From positions 1 to 21,440 of IMG/VR virus record IMGVR_UViG_3300033148_003949: 21,440 nucleotides of DNA; one strand, written 5' to 3'. Source of the stretch: a virus. Every line of letters begins with the position of its first letter. Positions within the stretch are counted from its first letter, which is position 1. The position numbers and the translations under genes were made by a program. The notes under the pieces are model-generated. The model worked only from the letters and a program-made list of their open reading frames with translations. It made no database searches and was not told where the DNA came from. This document shows, piece after piece, positions 3,714-17,572 of this stretch.

Positions 3714-4526
3714 CTAGTTCGCCACCTTCTCTCCCCGGCCAGCCACGAACAGGTCCTCGCGCAGGTCGTTGGCCATGGCCTGGGCAAGCCTCATCTGGCT
3801 CTCGTGCTCCTCGAAGTCGGCGCCCTTGCCGCGTATGCGCGACTGGTGCAGGAGGGCCTTGGCCTGCTGGACGATGAACGCGGCGTTTACGTTGCAGTCG
3901 TCGGCATCCCCGGTCAGCAGGGAGGGCTCGGACTGGCCCACGAGGCGGAGGTTGCGGCCAGCAGTGAAGGTCCAGAGGCCGGGGTCAAACCAGAGCTTCG
4001 GGGTACTCCCGTGCAGTATCCGCCAGTGCATCCGGTCGACCTTGCCATCAGACACGCTGTACTCGTCTGCCGTGCCCCTCTCCTGGAATATCTCCTCGAC
4101 GTATGCAAAGCCGGTGGGGATGGTGTATTCGTAGGTGGAGGCGGCTGTCTCCAGCGTGGCATCCACCTTGTCCTCCAGCGCCTCCCCCTGCACCATGCTG
4201 ATGGCCTCGTTGATGGCCCAGATGAGTTCGGTGGGGCGGAAGTCGGGGAGGAAGTAGAAGAGGTCCTCAGCGTCGATCAGCGTGATGGCGGGGGTGATGA
4301 CGAACACCCCGGTGCCGGTCGTGAAGTCCGTAACCTCAACGTCCGTGTCGATGTTGGTGCCGGCGTAGCAGTGGCCGAACCAGTCGTTGAAGTAATCGTC
4401 CTCGTACGCGGAGAGGGCAGCAGCGGCAAACCCGGTGGTGCTGTACGTGCCGGTGGGGGTGACGTCGTGCGCCTCACCCACGGAGCGGGCAAGCCGGATG
4501 CAGAGTTGAGCCAGGGTCTGCGCCAT
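3714..4526 (-). CDS. Head-tail adaptor (connector) protein, 270 aa
   Basis: The 270-aa product starts at ATG 4526, right after the TAG of the previous gene, with GGAGGAAG about 3 nt upstream. The N-terminal 'MAQTLAQLCIRLARSVGE' is a helix of the kind that begins many phage adaptor proteins. The middle has 'FRPTELIWAINEAISMVQGE', an 'xxxLxxxINEAxxxV' helix seen in gp6-like and tail tubular A-like adaptors. The C-terminal half mixes beta strands with a long helix (AAFIVQQAKALLHQ, then ADFEEHESQMRLAQAMANDL). Such proteins form a dodecameric ring under the portal and accept the tail. The following gene is the large propeller-like tail protein, as expected. The family match is by pattern and neighbours, not by search. 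Confidence 0.72.
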   Translation of the reverse strand: MAQTLAQLCIRLARSVGEAHDVTPTGTYSTTGFAAAALSAYEDDYFNDWFGHCYAGTNIDTDVEVTDFTTGTGVFVITPAITLIDAEDLFYFLPDFRPTELIWAINEAISMVQGEALEDKVDATLETAASTYEYTIPTGFAYVEEIFQERGTADEYSVSDGKVDRMHWRILHGSTPKLWFDPGLWTFTAGRNLRLVGQSEPSLLTGDADDCNVNAAFIVQQAKALLHQSRIRGKGADFEEHESQMRLAQAMANDLREDLFVAGRGEKVAN

Positions 4527-4751
4527 CTACTTCCTCCGAAGGCCCTCGTTCACCTTCTCCCGACTGCTCATGTGGTCCGGGTGAGGATTCAGGCTCTTCC
4601 CCGTCTTCGCCCTGGCCATCGAGTAGCACATCGCTATCGCCTGATCCTGGGGCCTCCCCCCGTCCACTTCCGTGCTGATGCAGCTGCCAATCGCCTCCCT
4701 AATCTGCTCCGGGCTGCTGCTCTTCGTCAGACTGTCCACCGCTGTCGGCAT
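4527..4751 (-). CDS. Small phage protein with PQDQAIAMCYSMAR motif, 74 aa
   Basis: The 74-aa product starts at ATG 4751 and ends with TAG directly before the adaptor gene. The SD is weak (AAGGACC about 8 nt upstream), and the start lies inside the preceding gene, so translation is probably coupled. Residues about 14-50 carry 'EQIREAIGSCISTEVDGGRP' and then 'QDQAIAMCYSMARAKTG'. The 'CI...EG.PQDQAIA.C.S.A' signature is one I recognise from short phage head-module proteins and from tails of some prohead-protease fusions, where its function is unknown. The C-terminus is basic (SSREKVNEGLRRK). Codons are strongly GC at third positions, which supports coding despite a 53-bp overlap with the upstream gene. 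Confidence 0.72.
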   Translation of the reverse strand: MPTAVDSLTKSSSPEQIREAIGSCISTEVDGGRPQDQAIAMCYSMARAKTGKSLNPHPDHMSSREKVNEGLRRK

Positions 4752-4944
4752 GGCGTATGGTCCTTCCCCGCCTGCTGGCGTCGATCTGGCTGCAGATGCT
4801 CCTCACGCGATGCCCCATCGCCACTTCCGGGTTCACCACCACGTAGAACCGCGGCCGGCCGTCCCCGGTCACCTCAAGGCACTCCCCGGCCATGATGCTA
4901 GTGAGCGACATCAGCTTCAGCTGGCTGAACGATATCCTCTCCAT
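4699..4944 (-). CDS. Small protein with weak Phd/YefM antitoxin-like N-terminus, 81 aa
   Basis: The chosen start is ATG 4944, preceded by a very strong AGGAGGA about 6 nt upstream; longer in-frame starts lack such a site. It overlaps the preceding gene by 47 bp and the next by 53 bp, each in a different frame. The N-terminal 'MERISFSQLKLMSLTSIMAG' followed by 'ECLEVTGDGRPRFYVVV' has the layout of Phd/YefM antitoxin N-domains (Sx(E/Q)LK..., a 'GExLEVTxxGRP' turn, then a hydrophobic strand). This may be chance or a captured fold; no toxin partner is obvious. The remainder (GHRVRSICSQIDASRRGR then a polar acidic tail) is unlike known antitoxins. Role in the virion operon unknown; a small transcription factor or scaffold helper is conceivable. 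Confidence 0.62.
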   Translation of the reverse strand: MERISFSQLKLMSLTSIMAGECLEVTGDGRPRFYVVVNPEVAMGHRVRSICSQIDASRRGRTIRHADSGGQSDEEQQPGAD

Positions 4945-5257
4945 CGGCTTCCTCCTGTGCAGGCTCAGTGCCGTTGCCGCAGGCCAGGGCCCGGCGCTTG
5001 CGGATGGCGTTGGGGTCGTTGGGAAGCCACCTGCCCTCCCAGCGGGCGGTGGTGATGGCATCCCACTCCTCGCGGGTGTAGCCGGGGGGGCGCTTGGCGG
5101 TCATCCAGAACTCGGTGACCTGGCGCCCGCCTCTGGTTCGGGTTATGGTGCCGCCCACATGCGGGTTGGCCTCGGGCAGCACGGTATCCATGGTGGCATA
5201 CTGGTTGCCGCCGTGTCCGGGGATGTCGCCGTACTCGTCGCGGGCGTACTTGGCCAT
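4898..5257 (-). CDS. Unknown virion-operon protein, 119 aa
   Basis: The 119-aa product starts at ATG 5257, sharing one base with the TAA of the YkgJ-like gene (TAATG), with GGAGGAG inside the end of that gene as its SD. The N-terminus is polar with Gly/Asp (ARDEYGDIPGHGGNQYATMD). The middle has 'FWMTAKRPPGYTREEWDAIT' and 'RWLPNDPNAIRKRRALACGN', both aromatic- and proline-rich, and the last 25 residues are an acidic tail. No domain is recognised. There is no signal or membrane segment. It lies between the cysteine-cluster protein and two smaller overlapping genes, so these four may act together. Confidence 0.68.
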   Translation of the reverse strand: MAKYARDEYGDIPGHGGNQYATMDTVLPEANPHVGGTITRTRGGRQVTEFWMTAKRPPGYTREEWDAITTARWEGRWLPNDPNAIRKRRALACGNGTEPAQEEADGEDIVQPAEADVAH

Positions 5258-5835
5258 TACTCCTCCTCCCGTGTGAGCACGGTCAGGTCCGGCAGCAGCA
5301 CCTTGTTCTCCCCCTCCATAGCCTCCTCAATGATATGGCGGACTGCCTGGAGCGAGGGCATGCACCTGATACGCACCACCATCTGCTTCACTTCCCCCCC
5401 GTCCAGCACCATCGTCCGCCCACCCATGATCGGGAACAGGTAGCAGACATCAGGCCGGTGATCGTAGATGCTGCATGCCCCGTCCTTGAGGTAGGGGCAG
5501 CCCTCACTGGTGTCCAGCCACGGCACGCCCTCGGCGTCGATGTTGAGGGGCACCGGGTTCTCGACGTTGTCCCGGATGCGCTTGTCATCGGCCTCCTTCA
5601 CGGTCGTCCGCGGGTAGGAGCAGCACATGGTGCATCCCCCCGGCGGGCAATCCAGATCATCCAAGAGCCTCCGCACGGTGAGCGGGTTGTACTCAATCGG
5701 CAGGGGGATATTGGTCCCCCCGCCCTCACCGTAGCGCACCAGCACGTCCAGCCAGAACTCCTCGTCAGCGACAAGGTCCGTCCGCCCCTGGTACTTGGCA
5801 AACATGGCCTGCTCCGGTGCAGTCAGATCAGCCAT
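5257..5835 (-). CDS. YkgJ-family cysteine-cluster (zinc/iron-chelating) protein, 192 aa
   Basis: The 192-aa product starts at ATG 5835 with AGGAGAG about 6 nt upstream. It carries the cysteine layout of the YkgJ (putative zinc- or iron-chelating) family: C63, C68-x2-C71-C72, then C113-PYLKDGA-C121-SIYDHRPDV-C131-YLFP and C158. The 'CPYLKDGACSIYDHRPxxCxxFP' block is the family hallmark. These proteins are thought to bind a metal or iron-sulphur cluster; some cellular members have been linked to protein modification, but biochemistry is poor. The N-terminal 60 residues are extra, helical and acidic. It is embedded in the virion operon, after the decoration gene and its hairpin, and is coupled to the next gene. 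That context suggests a role in particle assembly or in modifying virion proteins, by inference only. Confidence 0.85.
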   Translation of the reverse strand: MADLTAPEQAMFAKYQGRTDLVADEEFWLDVLVRYGEGGGTNIPLPIEYNPLTVRRLLDDLDCPPGGCTMCCSYPRTTVKEADDKRIRDNVENPVPLNIDAEGVPWLDTSEGCPYLKDGACSIYDHRPDVCYLFPIMGGRTMVLDGGEVKQMVVRIRCMPSLQAVRHIIEEAMEGENKVLLPDLTVLTREEE

Positions 5836-5860
5836 CGGGCTCTCCTATTCGGTTGTGATA

Positions 5861-5900: not shown

Positions 5901-6935
5901 CTAGTCAGCGAATGTCCAGTCGCCGTCCGAGTGGATGACCAGCCAGTTGGTCGCATCCACCGCCCGGAGCTCAAGGATGCAGTCCAGCCCCTTGTCGTCC
6001 GTGGCCTTGTCGTGGACCCCACCGTCCGAGGGGTCGATGAGCTTGTCCGAGGTACCTGCCGCCACGATCAGCGTCTGTGTCTCGGCCAGGTGCTTGATCA
6101 GGAAGTACTTCCCCGCAGCCGCCGTCGGCAGCGTCAGGGTCGTGCTCGCAGCCGGAGACACCTCGACGTACCCCTGCTCCGCGTCTGTGAGCGTTGCAGT
6201 GGCTGTCTTGGAGGTCTTCTGCACCATCTTGACCACACCCGTGGTAAGCGTGATGCTGCCGTCCGTCAGGGTGGCATCGCCAGCGGTCAGGGTCAGGTCA
6301 CCCTTCGTGAGGACGACATCGCCCTCAGTGTTGGTGAACGTGCCCTTCAGCATGGTGATGTCGGTGCCCACGTAGAGCTTCTTGGTGATGCCCAAGCCGC
6401 CCTTCGTCTTTATCGAAGCCGTGTCGGCGTCGCTGGCATCGGTGGTGTCGGTCACGGAGAGCACGTCGCTGGCCGCCAGGGTCGTGAAGCTGCCGGCCAC
6501 GCCCGTGAGCGCGGTGTTCGGCTGCAGCAGTATCCTGTCCCGGTCCAGGTTGTACCCGACGAGCTGGCTGTAGGTGCCTCCCGCACTGGAAGAGGGCTTG
6601 CCGTCCTCACCCAGGTACAGGGCGGCGCCGAAGTAGTCGGTGGACGCCCCGAAGTGCTGCTGAGTCACCGCCCCGCCGGTGCCGACCGTCCGCGGCGCCT
6701 CAAGTTCGACGGCCAGGGCAAGCCATATCTCCTCTTCGGCTGCCCCGTCCTCGCAGGCGACTGCTTGAGCCGGCTGGGAGTCAGACTGGTCGGCGAACTG
6801 GAAGGCGCTGGTGGCGTCGGTGTTGTAGAAGCTGACGAGGTCTCCTACGACCACCGCCTCCATTACCACGCCCCTGAATCGCCCCCAACTATGGAGAACG
6901 GTCTTCTTGTTCCGGTCTGTGTATGTGAAGGCCAT
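5901..6935 (-). CDS. Capsid decoration / head-fibre protein, 344 aa
   Basis: The 344-aa product starts at ATG 6935 with AGGAGGAAGG just upstream, among the strongest SD sites in the window. Residues 1-145 resemble a capsid decoration domain (short beta strands around 'VVVGDLVSFYNTD', an 'LALAVELEA' strand, and an 'LYLGEDG' strand). Residues about 178-235 are fibre-like: 'KGGLGITKKLYVGTDI' followed by short repeats of the form GDVVLTKGDLTLTAGDATLT. Such 'GGxGIxKxLYVG' segments are typical of phage tail and head fibres. Residues 245-344 form another beta domain with 'TTLTLPTAAAGKYFLIKHL' and 'KLIDPSDGGV', also seen in fibres. It directly follows the capsid gene, separated by a hairpin. A trimeric capsid-surface fibre or decoration protein that helps adsorption is inferred. 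Confidence 0.78.
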   Translation of the reverse strand: MAFTYTDRNKKTVLHSWGRFRGVVMEAVVVGDLVSFYNTDATSAFQFADQSDSQPAQAVACEDGAAEEEIWLALAVELEAPRTVGTGGAVTQQHFGASTDYFGAALYLGEDGKPSSSAGGTYSQLVGYNLDRDRILLQPNTALTGVAGSFTTLAASDVLSVTDTTDASDADTASIKTKGGLGITKKLYVGTDITMLKGTFTNTEGDVVLTKGDLTLTAGDATLTDGSITLTTGVVKMVQKTSKTATATLTDAEQGYVEVSPAASTTLTLPTAAAGKYFLIKHLAETQTLIVAAGTSDKLIDPSDGGVHDKATDDKGLDCILELRAVDATNWLVIHSDGDWTFAD

Positions 6936-6985
6936 TGCCTTCCTCCTGCGTCTGGCGCCGAATCAAGGGCCGACGCCACGCCCCT

Positions 6986-7011
6986 CCCGGTGATTTCGTC
7001 GGCTCACCGGG
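6986..7011 (-). terminator. Hairpin downstream of the capsid gene
   Basis: CCCGGTGA (6986-6993) pairs perfectly with TCACCGGG (7004-7011) around a 10-nt loop. It sits in the 135-bp gap between the major capsid gene and the decoration gene, the longest gap within the minus-strand operon apart from its promoter side. There is no T-run on the minus strand, so partial termination or mRNA 3'-end protection is more likely than full termination. Confidence 0.5.
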
Positions 7012-7070
7012 TAAAGCCTCCTCACGGCTGATTGGGGCTCAACCGAGCGAAGAAGCCCGTGGTCCGCGTC

Positions 7071-8039
7071 CTACGCTGTCACCGTGGTGGCCGGTGCCAG
7101 TCCCGTGAGCTTCGAGCACGTGATTATGCTCTGGAGCATCAGGCCGGGGTACCAGATGAGCCGGACGCGCTTGGCGTTCTTCGTCTCCAGCTCGTCCCGG
7201 AACCTCTTGACCCTCAGCGCCCCACCCGACTGGAGGCCGGAGCACGCCTTCGAGCCGAACTGGATGAAGAAGACGGTTGTGGCGTCGTCGTCGTCATCCA
7301 GTTCGGTGCCGTCGGTGGGCTGGTGGCCGTAGCCGCTGCCGTAGTCCTTGTCGCACGCCTCGTCGTTCGAGAGGTGATCTGAGACTACGAGTGGGACCTC
7401 GTTGATGGTCTGCACGGTCTTGCCCTGAATGTCCATCTTCGTGATGCCACCCACGCCGTTCAGGTACTGGTTGATCTCCCGGCGCATCTTCTTGGTCATC
7501 ACGCAGATGTCCGCGTCGCCGTCCGTGATGAGGTCGTTGGCCTCCTCAAGGGCGATCATGGTGCAGGCCGCAGGTGTCTCCGAGGACCCACTGGCGACGG
7601 TGTTGTAGGTCTCGCTCGTCATCAGCTGGTGCAGCCCGTCGAACCGCTTGGTCTCGGTGGCCGCATAGCCGTAGAAGAACGTGTCCAGGAACGCCCGCCG
7701 CATGCTCTTCGCCTTGGACTCGATCTGCTCGCTCATGAGGTCGTTCATGTTCGAGCGCGTGGTCCGAAGGTACTCGTCTACGTCAGCGTCGCCACCCAGG
7801 ATCTTGGTGTGGGCGGTGTGCTGCGTAACGGTGGACGTGTCCTCGACCCATGTGTCCCCCACGGAGTAGAAGTCCGAACCCGAGATGGTCGTCTCCACGT
7901 CGTAGGTGAGTCCGTTCCCCCTGATGTCCTTGAAAGGCAAGCGCGTAAGGATGGGGTCGTGCTTCACGAGCAGCTCGATGACGCCCCTCTGGAGCACGTC
8001 ATTCGAGTACTTGCTGGCCTCAACCAGAGTCATTGCCAT
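7071..8039 (-). CDS. Major capsid protein (HK97-fold type), 322 aa
   Basis: The 322-aa product starts at ATG 8039 with GGGGGAG about 8 nt upstream. Its order fits an HK97-fold capsid protein without a cleaved N-terminal region: an N-terminal arm (MAMTLVEASKYSNDVLQRGV), an E-loop-like stretch about residues 50-80, a long spine helix about 97-122 (NMNDLMSEQIESKAKSMRRA), then A-domain strands and helices including 'DADICVMTKKMRREINQYL'. An acidic run (DDDDD, about 248-252) precedes strand 'VFFIQFG'. The gene follows the scaffold gene by 50 bp and is flanked by a hairpin after its stop, as expected for the most abundant protein. No protease gene is near, so the product probably assembles uncleaved. 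Confidence rests on position, size and this layout. Confidence 0.88.
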   Translation of the reverse strand: MAMTLVEASKYSNDVLQRGVIELLVKHDPILTRLPFKDIRGNGLTYDVETTISGSDFYSVGDTWVEDTSTVTQHTAHTKILGGDADVDEYLRTTRSNMNDLMSEQIESKAKSMRRAFLDTFFYGYAATETKRFDGLHQLMTSETYNTVASGSSETPAACTMIALEEANDLITDGDADICVMTKKMRREINQYLNGVGGITKMDIQGKTVQTINEVPLVVSDHLSNDEACDKDYGSGYGHQPTDGTELDDDDDATTVFFIQFGSKACSGLQSGGALRVKRFRDELETKNAKRVRLIWYPGLMLQSIITCSKLTGLAPATTVTA

Positions 8040-8089: not shown

Positions 8090-8869
8090 TTATCGTTGTC
8101 GTATCGGTCGTTTGAGCCCGGCTAGGACTTTCTCCTCCGGACTCATGTTCTCAACGGAACGGTTGGTGGTCCCGACCCTGCCGGAGTCCACCTTCGTGCG
8201 GCCCTTGACCTTCTTCTCCTTCGCCTCCAACGCCAGCTCCTTGGCCTTGAACTTCATGGCCGCTGGACCCCCGCCTCTCTGCTCCGCCTCCCGTACTTCG
8301 GGGTCGTTGAGCAGGAGGGTAGCGTCCACGCCATGCTCCTCAGCCAGTTCCTTGGCGAAGTTGATCCGGGAAGCAGCTTCCAGGCGGGCGGCATCACGCG
8401 AGAGACGTTCCCGTGCCTCACGCTCCCCCCGCCGCTGCTCCAGGGCCTTCGAGGCCGCTTCCTGCCGTTCCCGGCTCCGGGTGGCGGCGTCGGCAGCGGT
8501 CATCTCGCCAGCGGCCACGGCGGCGCTATCCACCTGGGCGTGCTGGCGCTCCACTGCCTCAGCATCGGCGATCTCACGCTCGATCTCCTGCCGCAAGACA
8601 GTGTCCCTGAGCGTGCCGATCTGCGTGTCCTTGGCCGACAGACCCTGCTTGAGCTCCGCGACCTCAGCCGCAAGGCTCTCCACAGTAAGCCCCTCTTCCT
8701 TGGACTCGTCCCCCGCAGCCTCTTCTGAACCTTCGCCACCCTCTCCAGGTTCGTCACCAGCAAACGGGTCATCGGTTACTTGGGAAGAGTCATCGCCCTC
8801 CCCAGGTCCGTCGCCCTCTTGCTCCTCCGTTACTTGGAGCTGGTCTGCCAGGTCCTTTTCAGTCGTCAT
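8090..8869 (-). CDS. Capsid scaffolding protein, 259 aa
   Basis: The 259-aa product starts at ATG 8869 with GGAGG about 7 nt upstream. Residues 1-60 are highly acidic and disordered (EEQEGDGPGEGDD, GEGGEGSEEAAGDESKEEG). Residues about 61-225 are a charged, alanine-rich coiled coil (VESLAAEVAELKQGL, RERQEAASKALEQRRGEREA). The C-terminus is basic and ends 'SPEEKVLAGLKRPIRQR'. An acidic N-terminus, coiled coil and basic capsid-binding tail are the hallmarks of scaffolding proteins, which line the procapsid and leave before or during packaging. It is directly upstream of the capsid gene. No nuclease or protease motif is present. Confidence 0.85.
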   Translation of the reverse strand: MTTEKDLADQLQVTEEQEGDGPGEGDDSSQVTDDPFAGDEPGEGGEGSEEAAGDESKEEGLTVESLAAEVAELKQGLSAKDTQIGTLRDTVLRQEIEREIADAEAVERQHAQVDSAAVAAGEMTAADAATRSRERQEAASKALEQRRGEREARERLSRDAARLEAASRINFAKELAEEHGVDATLLLNDPEVREAEQRGGGPAAMKFKAKELALEAKEKKVKGRTKVDSGRVGTTNRSVENMSPEEKVLAGLKRPIRQR

Positions 8870-8890
8870 CTGACTGCCTCCATTATGCCA

Positions 8891-8904
8891 CAGCCTGCAG
8901 GCTG
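8891..8904. repeat. 14-bp perfect palindrome between polyvalent and scaffold genes
   Basis: CAGCCTGCAGGCTG is a perfect 14-bp palindrome that begins 1 bp beyond the stop of the 1303-aa gene and lies 22 bp before the scaffold start. With no loop it is a poor hairpin; a dimeric protein binding site or chance is as likely. It is noted because the rest of this gap is only about 36 bp. Confidence 0.35.
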
Positions 8905-8905
8905 G

Positions 8906-11900
8906 CTAGCGTGCAGCAATGTTCTGCACTGTCTGTCGAAGCGTCTGTTTGAGCCACGCATCGAAACTCGGGGCACCCAGCGGAGCCTGCTCATAGACCA
9001 CCTGGAGTCGCGTGGCCTCTCCAGGGGTCAGGTCACCGTCCTCGTACCAGACCTTGCGAAGGGCGCGCAGGAGCGAGCCATCCAGATGCGGCCTCACTCG
9101 CTGCCATGCCGCCATAGCGTTCGAGAACCCAGAGCGGCTGGCGGGTGTGGGTCGACCGGCGGACTGGAGGAGGGTGTTCATCCGCTTCTTGCCCAGCACC
9201 TTCTCGTAGTCCTCCAGTATCTTCGGGTCGATCTCATACCGGAGGACGTTGTTGTCCTTGAGATACTCAGTAGCGAGAACCTTGGCGCGGGTGCTCTGGA
9301 GGGTGCTGACGCGGCCGAGGATGAACAGTTTGGCATCGACCTCTGGGTTCAGTTTTCGGTGCTGTATACGCGAGAACCGTTGCCCGCGCTCCCTGCGCTC
9401 GTCCTCGTCGGTGGAGATGTCGTCGTAGACCTCGATATCCCCTTCCCACTCCTCCCAGAGGTTGGACATGATGTTGGTTGGATATGCCCTGCCGCCAAAG
9501 AACTCCGAGGTGCCACGGATGGCCCGTTGCCTGATATCGCCACCCTCCAGAGCCACCGTCTGGACCCAGATAGGCATGAAGTTCTCGGCTACGGTCTTAG
9601 TAAACGAGAGGAAGCCATCGCGGGTAGGGTCCCCGATGAAGTCTTTGCCAGTAGCCAGATCCCAGGCATTGGAGACAACCGGGCTTGAGAGGCCGCGGAC
9701 GAATCGGATGAGTGGGTTGCGAATGTACTCACCCTTCCCCCATCCGACAGATGTGTCACCGAGCTTGGTGGGGTCATCGACTGTCGCTCCGAGGAGTTTG
9801 ATGACGCTGCGCACCTTGCTGCCCGGACCCACATTCTGCCCACCCACTTCCCAAGTGAGGAACTTGTTGGAGGCAGGGTCCAGATGGCGCAGGGCCTCCT
9901 CCTGGCTCTCACCCATAGCCAGGGAGATGGCGTAGCCGGTTGCCACTACTGCCGATACGCCCTTGATGAGGTGTTCGCGGGCGAGAGAACCCCGGATGCC
10001 ACCGGTACCGACCATCCCCCTGACTGCATCGAAGAGGAGGGCGGCTATGGCAGCGTTGTACCGAGGGGCGAGCATAGCCGCAGTCATCTTCTGCCTCGCC
10101 CCGGTACTCATCCCCAGGCGAGCCAGTGAAGTGACCCCGCGGAACTCGTTGACGAACTGGGCGATGTCGGCACGGCGGGCCGCGGTGGTGCCGAGGTGGT
10201 CGAAAGCTTTGAGCAACTCTATCCCGGCTATGTCCATGGCCGACTCGAAGCCGCGCTGGAATGGGCTGAGGGCCATATCGGGGGCCTTGGCGGCGGCGCC
10301 CACTACCTTGTATGGGGACCTTGCCAGCCGCGCCACTGTGCGGGAGAACTCGGTGAACTCGGTACCACCCTGGCGGGTGAGAACGGTGATCGGGTACCTT
10401 TGCGCGATGGCGATGTTCTCAGGACGCTTGAGGTACGCCGCGTGGAACTGCGGATCACGCATAGCCTGCACGAACCCTCTACCGGCCCTGACGTAGGCCC
10501 TCGGGTTCCCACCCGCCAGGAAAAGAAGCTGAATCAGCATGGGGCTGACATCACCAGCGAGCATGAAGTAGCGGGAGACGGCGTTGAACTGGTTGACCGC
10601 GGCAAGGGCCTCGGAGAAGTTCGGGTTCAGGCTCTTGTTGACGGCGTCAGCCACCTCCTTGCCACCTGGACCCTTGAAGTACTTGCCAGCAAAGGCCGGG
10701 GCCTGGATAGCACCCTCCCCCGCCTTGAGAGCCCTGAGGCGCTCACCGGCCCTTGCGAGACTAGCCTGTGTGTCCCGGACTTCAGCGAGCACCTCATTTA
10801 TCAGGCCACCGCGGAACTTCTGGGTGCCTGGGGCAACGCGCTCGCCACGGATGGCCGTGATGGTGTCGTCGAGGACCTGCATGGAGCGCTGGCGGAGGGC
10901 GCCCACGGGCTTGACCTTGGCATCGGTGAGAACTTGGGCGGCCTTGATGACATCGGACCGCCAGACACGCGTGGCTGGTTTGAGGCCCCGCTCCTCCAGC
11001 ATGGGGAAGACGCGCTCAATCGCCTTCACGGTACCCACGGGCAACTGCTCACCACGCTTGGCCCGCTGAAGTGCCAGCACGGCCCTGCGCGCGCTCTGTA
11101 GTTTCCTACTGGCAGCCAGCCTCGCGGCCTTGAGTTCCTCGCTTGTGCCCGCCGTCCTCCACGGTACTTCGTCCAGCAGCCAGTCAGCCATGCGCTTGTC
11201 GGCGATCTTGTTCAGCCCTCCCTCGATGTTGAGTCTGAGTGCTTCCTCTACCGGCAGTTCGTAGGCCCCAGCAGCGATTGCCTCCTCGGGGGTGTCGTAC
11301 CACTTGTGCTTCTCGAAGGCCAGTTTGCCGCCGGGTCTGGATGGGCCAGAACGGACACCGAAGGTCTCGATGGTGCCGTCCGGCATGTCCTTGGCAAACA
11401 CCCTGCTACCGATGTACCGCCTACCCTCCTCGAAGGTGAGCTTCTTGACTTCAATGCCCTCCGCCGCCATAACTCGCTCAAGGTCGTCCGTCAGGGACCC
11501 GACCCGAGTGATGAACTGTTGCTGTTCCGGAGTCATTCGGGGCATGTACTTCTTCGGGTTAGCAGCCAGCGTGTTGACAGTGAGGCCCTTGAACGGTCCC
11601 GCCTCAAGCAGACCGTGCTCGGATATGCGGCCGAAAACCTTGGTGGAGGGCCCGAGAGCGTCAATGTGGACCATAGCGGTTTGCGCTAGCGTCTCGACTT
11701 CTGCGCCGAGATGGGCGCGGCCAGCTGCGTACTTGGTGTAGGCGGGAGCGTCCGGTCCAGTGATGCCGAAGGGCTTGAGAACCGTGCGCATACCAGGGAG
11801 GGCAGCAATCTTCTTGAAGATATCTGGGCGGGAGGTGATGTCGACCACCGTATTGGCGTCCGTCAGGGCACCGATGAGGCGAGTCGGTTCGCCTCCTGAG

Positions 11901-13889: not shown

Positions 13890-15866
13890 TTACCCCCCTT
13901 GCCCAGCGGCCGCTCCTGCAGCAGCCGGCGACTCGATTCCTAGTGCCTTGAACAATTGCAGAACGATGTCCTGCCTCCCCGCCTGCTCCAGTATCCGCAC
14001 GATCGTCACCAGGAACTGCGGGTCGGGTGGAGCGCCAGCCTCGACCATTCGGACGAAGGCGTCGGCCTCTGCCTGCCTACCCGCCCCCACCAGTACGTTC
14101 AGTATAGCCTCAGCCAGAGGTTGTGGGATCTGCGGCCCCGGCGCCTGCCCAGGTGTGGGTGTGGGCTGAGGCTGTCCACCCGGCCCCGGCATCGCGCCCT
14201 CTGGACCTGCTCCCGCTGCTGCACCCTCTGGACCAGGCGCCGGTTGTGGCCCCGGCTGTCCCTCGAACAACTCCACGACCAGCTCAGCAGCCCGCTTCTC
14301 GCCAGCCTCCTCAAGAGCCTCTGCAATAAGCGCCGTCCTCACCGCCGGGTTGTTCTTCCCCTGCTCGACGAGGATTCGCCGCTCCTCAGCATCCGGGTCG
14401 CGGAGCTTGAGTATGTCAGCCCGGCCCGTCCGCTTGGACAGCGCCGGCATCTCGTCGGGTGACTGCTTGGACGTGAGGGCGAGGAACATCTGCGCGTCGG
14501 CCTCTTCGTCCCTGGGGAGCCGCGGCTCCACCTTGACCTCTACCCGCCAGCTCGGGTCCACTGTCTTGGGCTTGGTGGTGACCCTGAAGAACTCGCCCTC
14601 GTTGTTGTAGCCGGAGAGCTCGGCGGTCTTGATGTCCTCGACAGTGGCAAACTGGTGCAGGAACTCCTGGGCCAGCCAGGTGTACGCCTCAGCCAGCAGA
14701 TCGGTTATCGGCCCATATATAGTCCTGGCCGCTTCGTTGCGGATTGCCAGGGCCCGCCCGCTTTCTGCCGCCGTTGCACCCCCGTAAGCGAGCGGGCCGT
14801 GGTGGGTGACTTCCTGCCATTCATTGTCGATGACGCCGAGGATCTGGAATGTCTCGGCAGGGGGCTTCGGGAGTTCGAGGGGGGTGATCTTCTCATCCTT
14901 GTCTGTGCGAATCTCGCGGAAGCCGCGGTAGGGGTCGCCCTCGATACTCTTCTTCCCGGTCTTGGACTGGTGGATGAGGGTGCCGGCCACGGACCGCCTC
15001 TGCATGTCCATGAGGCGAGAGATGTAGCGATTCCGGGGCTTCACGAGCTTCCTGCCCATGCCCCACACGCTCTCACCTTGGAACTCGATAGTGTCCTGGC
15101 GGCCCTCGGACTGGGTGAGGATGGTGGGCATGCTGCCGACTGGAAGGATGAGGCCGGGGACATGGCCAATCCCATGCTGGGAGTCTTCGTCGTTGATGTC
15201 CTTGACGAACTCTCCACCTATGAGGATGGCATTGGCCTCCGGGGTCCAGAAGTCGGTGATGTCCCCCGACATGCCCTCGGCCTTTTCACCGTACTCGGCC
15301 TCAAGCTGGCTCTTCGTGGACGGGCGCTTGAACGCCATCCAGAGCAGCCCGTTGGGACCCATCTCCCACGTCACATGGAGCATGTCCCAGACAGCCACGT
15401 CGAAGACCGTGTCCTCCTCACCCTCCGGCACGAACGCGAGGGCGCGCATGGCGACCCACCCGCGGGCCAGCCCGTGGAAGGTGAGGGCCTTGCGGAGTGA
15501 GGGTTCGGCTATGGAGCGGCGCCGCCGGTCGACAGCGTCGAGTGCCCCGAAGAGGAACAGTTCGCCCTCGGAAGCGGCTGTCCGGTCTGCCTCTTCGCTA
15601 TCGTCGGGCAGGGTGATGGACAGGGTGAGCCGCGCCCGGTTGATCCCGGACTCTGCCGTGTCGAAGAAGTTGCGCGGCGAGGTGGTGGTGAAGTGCTCGT
15701 ATCCCTTCCCCTCCTCGCTGTCCGGGTCGTTCTGGGGCTCGTAGTCGTCAAGGGCATACAGCTCGTAGAAGTCGTCGTCCATGCGGGTACGCAGGTTCTC
15801 AAGCGTCCCCTCCATGGCCTTGACGGCCTCAAGAATCTCGCCGGGGTCCTCGAACGTCCTAGCCAT
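13890..15866 (-). CDS. Portal protein, 658 aa
   Basis: The start at ATG 15866 is chosen because AGGAGG lies 9 nt upstream and it overlaps the stop of the small upstream gene (ATGGCTAG); a longer frame to 15899 has no comparable site. Order: helical N-terminus with acidic patches (DDDFYELYALDDYEPQNDPD), then 'FFDTAESGINRARLTLSITL', a wing-like domain with 'VFDVAVWDMLHVTWEMGPNG', stem/crown-like segment 'FQGESVWGMGRKLVKPRNRY', a region ending 'GPLAYGGATAAESGRALAIR' (a segment typical of portal clips), and a long Pro/Gly-rich linker (about 535-583) before a short helical C-terminal domain (about 584-645). The product forms the dodecameric ring for DNA entry. It lies directly after terL, the canonical place. 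The Pro/Gly linker plus extra helical domain is unusual. Confidence 0.88.
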   Translation of the reverse strand: MARTFEDPGEILEAVKAMEGTLENLRTRMDDDFYELYALDDYEPQNDPDSEEGKGYEHFTTTSPRNFFDTAESGINRARLTLSITLPDDSEEADRTAASEGELFLFGALDAVDRRRRSIAEPSLRKALTFHGLARGWVAMRALAFVPEGEEDTVFDVAVWDMLHVTWEMGPNGLLWMAFKRPSTKSQLEAEYGEKAEGMSGDITDFWTPEANAILIGGEFVKDINDEDSQHGIGHVPGLILPVGSMPTILTQSEGRQDTIEFQGESVWGMGRKLVKPRNRYISRLMDMQRRSVAGTLIHQSKTGKKSIEGDPYRGFREIRTDKDEKITPLELPKPPAETFQILGVIDNEWQEVTHHGPLAYGGATAAESGRALAIRNEAARTIYGPITDLLAEAYTWLAQEFLHQFATVEDIKTAELSGYNNEGEFFRVTTKPKTVDPSWRVEVKVEPRLPRDEEADAQMFLALTSKQSPDEMPALSKRTGRADILKLRDPDAEERRILVEQGKNNPAVRTALIAEALEEAGEKRAAELVVELFEGQPGPQPAPGPEGAAAGAGPEGAMPGPGGQPQPTPTPGQAPGPQIPQPLAEAILNVLVGAGRQAEADAFVRMVEAGAPPDPQFLVTIVRILEQAGRQDIVLQLFKALGIESPAAAGAAAGQGG

Positions 15867-15987
15867 CGGACTCGGCCTCCTCGGGCGCAGGAAACTCAAA
15901 TACCCCGTCGTGCTTGGGGCACACGATGTCGGTTCGCAGACCGTTTGGGCTATCGTCTAGCCCACAAATGCACTCTGGCTCAGCCAC
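15859..15987 (-). CDS. 42-aa cysteine-rich protein with CxC...CxxH pattern between terL and portal
   Basis: A GTG at 15987 begins a 42-aa frame that overlaps the terL stop by 8 bp and the portal start by 8 bp. GGGAGGG lies about 7 nt before the GTG. The product reads AEPECICGLDDSPNGLRTDI then VCPKHDGVFEFPAPEEAESDG: C6-x-C8 and C23-x2-H26 could bind one zinc, followed by an acidic tail. A longer in-frame ATG (16041) would overlap terL by 62 bp and has no clear site. Very short proteins with a CxC...CxxH pair occur in phage packaging modules but are not named. The double overlap with a good SD supports translation. It might bridge terminase and portal or be a regulatory peptide; this is inference. 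Confidence 0.6.
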   Translation of the reverse strand: MAEPECICGLDDSPNGLRTDIVCPKHDGVFEFPAPEEAESDG

Positions 15988-17572
15988 TTCTGAACCCTCC
16001 CTGTGCAGGCTGAGCAGGTGGAGGCAGGTTCCCCCGAGCATCGGACTCGCGCTTGAAGGCGTGTACGGGAGTGGTGTCGGTGTAGAGGCTGACCTCTTTG
16101 CGCATCTGCCACGCCAGTGCCACAGCCATGGGGTAGTCGTCGTGCTCGCCCTCAAGGGCCTCCACACGGCTGTTCTTGTCTTCGTTGATGATAACGGAGA
16201 AGAACTCCAGCAGGCCGCGCTCGGAGGGGATGACCAGCTCCCGATTCCGCACGGCCACGATCAGCTCACCCCAGACCTCGTATCGGTTGCTGGGCATGGT
16301 GTGCCAGCCGGGGGTGTCCTTCTTGCGCTCGTAGAGGTTCGGGTACTCAAGCTCCTCGGCCTTCCTGAGTACCATCCTCCCCCAGTCGTTGTCCTCGATG
16401 ACCCAGAGGGGGTAGCCGTACATCTTCAGCATCCGCACCGACTCGGCAGCCTGGGTATCCGTGGCCATGGTGTTGGAGTAGATGTGGGCCACGACCATCC
16501 CGGTACCGGCATCCAGTACTACGGTCGGGGAACTGTCTCCGCCTGTGCCCCCCGAGGGGTCCGAACCGGCCGCGTACTTCTTCCCCACGACAGGCTTCTG
16601 GAATATCTCAATCGGCCCGTCCGTCTCCACGGGGCTGCGGCAGTCCTGGAGCATGTCCTTCAGGGCGTCGATGTCGAAGGCCGCAAGGGTCCGGGAGAGG
16701 GCCAGCATCTCCGCTTCGGTGCGCGGGTACTCCTGCTCCATGTACAGCTCAGGGCTCATCCCCTTCAGGTCCTGCGTGCGCGCCTCCGCGTACCTATCCT
16801 CGTACCACTGTTCGTCCCGGTCGGCTCGCGCAAACACCCCGTAGAAGACCCTCTTGAAGTTGTTGCCGGGCGCCCCCTTGTATATCTGCCTGAACAGGGA
16901 CCTGGGCTTCCTCTTGTTGATGGTGGAGACCTGGATGAGCTGCCCGCCCCCGTCAATGGTGGGCTTGACGGCCATGTAGTTCTCGGAGAGGTGCTCGTGG
17001 TTGTCGGCCTCGTCCTGGATGACCAGCGAAGCCGTCTCGGACCTGCCGGCCTTCTCCGTGCTCGGCCAGGCGACGATCTTGGAGCCGTTCGCAAATATGC
17101 GATGCTCGTTGCTGTCCTTCAGGATGCGGCTCTTGAGATGGTCGGGCATGTGCTCGTGGATGAACCGGCATTTCCCGAGGAACACCCCGGCCTCGGTCTC
17201 CCCCTGCGAGAACAGGAAGATGACGGCGCCGGGGAAGAACTCCGCCTTCCAGCCCGCGTACGCCGCCAGCAGCCACGTCACCCCCAGCTGCCGGGCCTTG
17301 CCGATCGAAATGAGCCGGTTGAGAGCGAGGTTCCGCCCGGTCCTGTCGTCCCAGACCTCAGCGGAAATCGTCCGGGCGAGCTCCACCAAGTGCGGCCACG
17401 GCTGCCAGGAAATGACCCCCCGGCCCGGCGGGGGTTCGAGAATCCTTACCAGGTCGAGGTAGTCGCGGAAGGACTGCTCGCAGAGGGCGCGCTCGACTAC
17501 TGTGTCGTCCACCTCAAGAAGGGGGGTACGCGTGGGCGCTTCGGTTGTCATGGCGCGGGCAGTAGTTGTCAC
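15980..17572 (-). CDS. terL: Terminase large subunit (ATPase and nuclease), 530 aa
   Basis: The 530-aa product starts at GTG 17572; an ATG at 17551 is an alternative, neither having a strong SD. ATPase: Walker A-like KARQLGVT (92-99), Walker B LVIQDEAD (183-190) with the catalytic E188, and coupling motif QVSTIN (214-219). Nuclease: SDPSGGTGGDSS (D338) and EDNDWG (E392/D394) with a late HDDYPMA (D478/D479), the usual acidic triad for an RNase H-like headful or cos nuclease. The KARQLGVT box is typical of terminases from many siphoviral and podoviral phages. It cuts genomic concatemers and drives DNA through the portal. TerS lies upstream, separated by a possible 41-aa gene; the 42-aa gene overlaps its 3' end. 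Confidence 0.95.
   Translation of the reverse strand: MTTTARAMTTEAPTRTPLLEVDDTVVERALCEQSFRDYLDLVRILEPPPGRGVISWQPWPHLVELARTISAEVWDDRTGRNLALNRLISIGKARQLGVTWLLAAYAGWKAEFFPGAVIFLFSQGETEAGVFLGKCRFIHEHMPDHLKSRILKDSNEHRIFANGSKIVAWPSTEKAGRSETASLVIQDEADNHEHLSENYMAVKPTIDGGGQLIQVSTINKRKPRSLFRQIYKGAPGNNFKRVFYGVFARADRDEQWYEDRYAEARTQDLKGMSPELYMEQEYPRTEAEMLALSRTLAAFDIDALKDMLQDCRSPVETDGPIEIFQKPVVGKKYAAGSDPSGGTGGDSSPTVVLDAGTGMVVAHIYSNTMATDTQAAESVRMLKMYGYPLWVIEDNDWGRMVLRKAEELEYPNLYERKKDTPGWHTMPSNRYEVWGELIVAVRNRELVIPSERGLLEFFSVIINEDKNSRVEALEGEHDDYPMAVALAWQMRKEVSLYTDTTPVHAFKRESDARGNLPPPAQPAQGGFRSG

Follow-up and report, generated by a model that had tools for sequence, protein, structure and literature searches.

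Proteins of the PF03692 family (CxxCxxCC; YkgJ) carry a putative zinc- or iron-chelating domain, and to our knowledge most of them are without a known activity. The closest described system is FliB of Salmonella, which binds one [4Fe-4S] cluster through a CX4CX3CC motif and needs this cluster for the methylation of flagellin lysines (PMC8598068). These lysines are exposed on the flagellin, and the authors of that work compared the motif, an N-terminal and cysteine-rich cluster in a protein with eight conserved cysteines, with PF03692 (PMC8598068).

The phage gene discussed here lies on the minus strand at 5257..5835 of the window, by which we mean the whole 21,440-nucleotide stretch of viral DNA that was analysed (IMG/VR record IMGVR_UViG_3300033148_003949, positions 1 to 21,440). 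Its assignment as a YkgJ/PF03692 gene of 192 aa rests on the open reading frame, the Pfam match and an eight-member family with invariant cysteines. The initial annotation had proposed an open reading frame of this length at the same position; the gene is real, but it belongs to the minus strand, and the plus-strand reading is not the gene in question. An AGGAG ribosome-binding-like site can be read in the sequence ahead of its ATG (5842..5846, minus strand). The TAA stop and the ATG of the following gene overlap, and the ribosome site of that gene lies within the last YkgJ codons. With a GC3 of 0.85, YkgJ has the same codon use as the capsid and decoration genes.

A Pfam profile search matches the protein to PF03692 with 35.2 bits (E 2.1e-8). 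As this score exceeds the gathering cut-off of 23 bits, the YkgJ cysteine layout noticed in the initial annotation is no chance pattern. The layout is present as CX4CX2CC...CPYLKDGAC...C...C, with eight cysteines at C63, C68, C71, C72, C113, C121, C131 and C158, and the suspected conservation holds, all eight being invariant in the homologous phage genes. The cysteines of the CX4CX2CC stretch (codons 63-72, 5620..5649, minus strand) are candidates for ligating a metal centre, [4Fe-4S] or other; none of them varies among the eight members or the aligned other phage YkgJs. The YkgJ family signature, CPYLKDGACSIYDHRPDVC, occupies codons 113-131 (5443..5499, minus strand), as seen in the Pfam match and the alignments, and the codon of C158, the eighth conserved cysteine in the family alignment, is found at 5362..5364 (minus strand). 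Codons 1-60 (5656..5835, minus strand) form a family-specific N-terminal extension of the pattern YxGRxDLxxDExFW...PLPxxxxPxTxR, which is kept in the eight relatives and confidently modelled.

The likeness to PF03692 covers the whole cysteine layout, the CPFL..C.IY..RP..C motif and a score beyond the gathering cut-off in all members. The phage subfamily differs in having CX4CX2CC in place of CX2CX2CC, and in its N-terminal extension of about 60 residues, its conserved LLPDLT tail and its location in virion operons. With FliB, the phage protein shares the number of conserved cysteines and a PF03692-like cluster. FliB acts on a surface-exposed, assembling protein, and the genes next to the phage YkgJ code for surface or fibre-like proteins. 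However, the last gap of the motif is one residue shorter in the phage protein (CX4CX2CC versus CX4CX3CC), the FliB model extends over 373 positions compared with 192 aa in the window protein, and FliB is a flagellar and not a phage protein. The FliB model NF038110, with a cut-off of 85 bits, found no match in six of the seven contigs that carry full-length members, and its best score was 10.3 bits for one of the two copies in contig L096; NCBIfam likewise gave no match for the YkgJ of the window or that of contig L018. With neither the model matched nor the CX4CX3CC spacing present, an identification of the subfamily as FliB is rejected, and our claim is therefore that the protein may work like FliB, not that it is a FliB.

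An AlphaFold2 model built from 28 aligned sequences reaches a mean pLDDT of 91.8 and a pTM of 0.83, compared with a pLDDT of 39 when the alignment holds two sequences, and it places the N-terminal extension as confidently as the core. The initial annotation had called this N-terminus virion-module-like; it contains no recognisable virion domain and is instead specific to this YkgJ subfamily. The sole notable structural match is a predicted phage zinc- or iron-chelating protein (probability 0.97, E 0.02), and sequence and fold searches found no counterpart among solved structures. Ferredoxin-like matches at Z 2-3, a range below the trust level, hint that residues 36-60 and 136-186 of the model may make up a single sandwich into which the cysteine region is inserted.

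In the window, the genes on the strand of YkgJ run in the order terminase (15980-17572), portal-like (13890-15899), a 1307-aa protein, scaffold-like, major capsid (7071..8039, PHROG 212, E 1.2e-49), decoration-like (5901..6935), YkgJ, about three small genes and an SU10-type adaptor (3714..4526, PF24175). The flanks named in the initial annotation, a decoration gene and an adaptor gene, are thus recovered, the former upstream and the latter downstream beyond the small genes. The decoration-like protein, of 344 aa and encoded directly upstream of YkgJ, has an N-terminal part that follows the capsid gene in at least 15 relatives, and a C-terminal domain at 5904..6323 (minus strand). The small gene whose start overlaps the YkgJ stop (4898..5257, minus strand) encodes 119 aa and has relatives in sister phages. 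Further downstream, at 4699-4944 on the minus strand, lies the gene of a small protein (MERISFSQLKLMSLTSI...VTGDG...) that looks by eye like a Phd/YefM-type antitoxin, with no obvious toxin adjoining; the protein is conserved, and its relatives in L018, L013, L015, L016 and L002 recur between the decoration and adaptor genes.

Relatives of the capsid protein are encoded on 26 IMG/VR contigs, and these give a divided answer as to whether other phages hold the gene at this place. In one of them, L018, YkgJ follows the decoration gene in exactly the arrangement of the window, and its product is 48% identical to the window protein over the full length, with all cysteines retained. In L013 and L015, by contrast, a relative of the 119-aa gene stands directly after the decoration gene, and in L011 the decoration gene is followed by a short stretch holding such a relative. 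These three sites are empty, and the YkgJ gene is therefore accessory.

Among the capsid relatives, only L018, where YkgJ likewise adjoins the decoration gene, shares with the window the C-terminal domain of its decoration protein. Between the two phages the domain displays 89% protein identity, compared with 53% for the capsid protein, while third codon positions agree at only 43%, indicating that the domain is under unusually strong constraint. A recent transfer of the domain between the two phages was considered and rejected, given the low agreement at third positions despite the high protein identity. The co-occurrence of domain and gene weakly points at the decoration protein as a candidate YkgJ substrate in the window, weakly because it concerns two phages only.

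Alignment searches and DNA patterns extended the family to eight full-length members on seven viral contigs, namely the window, L018, L030, L033, L034, L075 and L096, the last with two tandem copies. Contexts are those of metagenomic fragments, and the L033 and L034 genes were read in L049 and L050, respectively. All eight members keep the N-terminus of about 60 residues and the eight cysteines, with G17, F27, W28, Y35, L45 and P46 invariant within the extension, and all lie above the PF03692 gathering cut-off, the relatives scoring 33-50 bits. In each of the seven contigs with a full-length copy, the gene resides in a head/tail module. The capsids in these modules belong to four families: PHROG 212 in the window and L049, and by similarity in L018; PHROG 1357 in L030; PHROG 10/PF05065 in L050; and Mu gpT/PHROG 371 in L096. 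In L096, the two divergent copies (7396-7989 and 8548-9120) come directly after the Mu-gpT-type capsid gene, and in L075 YkgJ is close to the tape-measure gene, with a tail terminator also present. A further member with a shortened N-terminus is encoded on L107, a contig with a head-tail adaptor and a tail terminator. There, at 6149-7194, the shortened gene is preceded by an open reading frame that by eye is HNH endonuclease-like and has relatives in L030, and this YkgJ may have been interrupted by a homing element.

In L030, L049 and L050, YkgJ is the third gene of a shared cassette of four. It is preceded by the genes for a small protein, which is Cys-rich in L030 and L050, and for a 128-aa protein, and it is followed by that for a repeat protein of 1080-1322 aa; in L030, one 82-aa gene separates YkgJ from the repeat gene. 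A relative of the 128-aa protein is found beside YkgJ in L075 and nearby in L107. The large proteins (L030:10497-13739, L049:14150-18118, L050:15858-19418) consist mostly of 20-residue repeats with the consensus TALLGLKxTASRvvaxTRxD, with lysine at column 7 and arginine at columns 12 and 18. For the L030 repeat protein, neither Pfam nor PHROG nor the phage records yielded a match, and the phage records likewise had none for the C-terminal decoration domain or the 128-aa neighbour. Two fused open reading frames were also observed in these modules. One, upstream of YkgJ in the virion module of L049 (11464-12789), joins glycosyltransferase-2 and methyltransferase domains; the other, in L050 (7130-9184), joins a portal (residues 58-379, PF04860) and a class I SAM methyltransferase (residues 526-619, PF08241).

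Searches beyond these contigs returned little. In INPHARED, the only hits were short motif matches, one in Hena1 and a weak one of 27% in MT835878, so that no cultured phage with a subfamily member was found there. PADLOC gave no match, and a literature search on YkgJ in phages, CxxCxxCC and virion lysine methylation yielded nothing on this protein.

We consider it most probable, at roughly 40%, that the subfamily is an accessory late gene for a stand-alone PF03692/YkgJ metal-cluster enzyme acting on a phage-particle protein during assembly. Judged from the sequences, metal loading into a virion protein or modification of one, as the initial annotation had put it, is still the best guess. Our leading interpretation is a putative metal- or [4Fe-4S]-dependent enzyme that would modify a virion surface protein, because of the likeness to FliB, the surface or fibre-like neighbours and the modification enzymes in related virion modules, such as a glycosyltransferase 2 in L013. 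In such an enzyme, the first four cysteines (CX4CX2CC) would hold a [4Fe-4S] cluster, or another Fe or Zn centre, as in FliB, and the subfamily-specific N-terminal part could help to recognise the virion substrate. The reaction would be a post-translational modification, most likely lysine N-methylation. Its target might be an exposed multi-copy surface protein, which for the window and L018 would be the decoration protein and for L030, L049 and L050 the Lys/Arg-repeat protein with its 20-residue units; as the neighbours of YkgJ differ between phages, no single substrate is implied. Through the modification, the particle surface could change in hydrophobicity, stability or adsorption. A more specific version, in which a horizontally moving phage enzyme family with a cysteine-bound [4Fe-4S] cluster methylates or otherwise modifies lysines of capsid-decoration or fibre proteins, is rather doubtful in all its parts together.

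The same head/tail setting could also be expected of a minor virion or assembly component with a structural Fe-S or Zn centre, for example a packaged accessory protein of the head or connector. Such a component would agree with the strong constraint on all eight cysteines and with the tandem copies of L096, which resemble capsid accessory genes in following the capsid gene, and iron-sulfur clusters are reportedly mentioned in papers on siphophage tail structures. Nevertheless, the subfamily always occurs in head/tail modules without keeping to one position, being found with head genes in the window and L096 and with tail or fibre genes in L030 and L075, next to unrelated capsids, which is hard to reconcile with a stoichiometric part. 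Moreover, the subfamily shares its YkgJ core with other phage YkgJs, and sister phages dispense with the gene. A structural role is on the unlikely side.

The wider distribution of YkgJ bears on a different explanation, that of a host-directed moron, a metal-binding protein acting late on the host, for example on one of its proteins or on the balance of metals or redox state, and placed in the late operon merely for expression. YkgJ genes are no rarity among phages: 91 IMG/VR stretches with YkgJ were detected by a strict DNA pattern, about 85 of them outside the subfamily and usually in other contexts. The placement that had struck the initial annotation as unusual recurs in virion modules on more than one contig, yet the presence of a YkgJ gene in a phage is not itself exceptional. 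Other phage YkgJs (e.g. Hena1_00060 of Erwinia phage Hena1) have the same PF03692-type core and motif, and seven of the cysteines are invariant also against 20 other phage sequences. They do not have such an N-terminal extension, however, and their best score to the family profile is 41 bits, compared with 170 for a new member. In a tree of the cysteine core only, the nine family sequences stand on one side of a branch and 46 other phage YkgJs on the opposite side (SH-aLRT 86). Among 120 neighbours of 35 other YkgJs, the commonest identified are transcription regulators and DNA methyltransferases, with few terminase, portal or protease genes (25 most frequent of 94 families), and such neighbours are mostly non-virion genes. 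From the different neighbours and the separate branch, we conclude that location in a virion module characterises this subfamily and not phage YkgJs generally.

For a host-directed protein speak the absence of the gene in sister phages, its varying neighbours, the phage YkgJs at non-virion contexts and the wide occurrence of YkgJ proteins in cells, with matches in 9-10 of 14 control genomes. Against it, morons should occupy scattered sites, whereas all seven contigs with a full-length copy, which between them have four capsid types, carry the extended subfamily in a virion module, and it was found in no other setting. A scan of GTDB genomes for cellular relatives with the pattern GRxDLxxDExFW, which misses the L096 copies and the L075 gene, returned nine chance matches and no relative. 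We regard a host-directed role, too, as unlikely. Very improbable is a carrier function, in which YkgJ would supply a virion protein with Zn or Fe, by delivery or insertion, and leave it covalently unmodified: the Pfam label of PF03692 as putative zinc- or iron-chelating domain and the small Cys-rich proteins adjoining YkgJ in L030 and L050 would suit it, but by eye the neighbouring decoration and repeat proteins have no evident conserved metal-binding motif.

The restriction to virion modules among otherwise dissimilar phages suggests, at the level of sequence, that the extended YkgJ proteins chemically modify a protein of the virus particle. If this reading is true, a metal-cluster enzyme encoded beside its target would chemically tailor phage particles. 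Surface modification of this kind is known for flagella, but we know of no case for phage virions. Independently of the mechanism, a YkgJ subfamily that recurs in virion modules with four capsid types offers a specific and testable setting for a Pfam family of unknown function.
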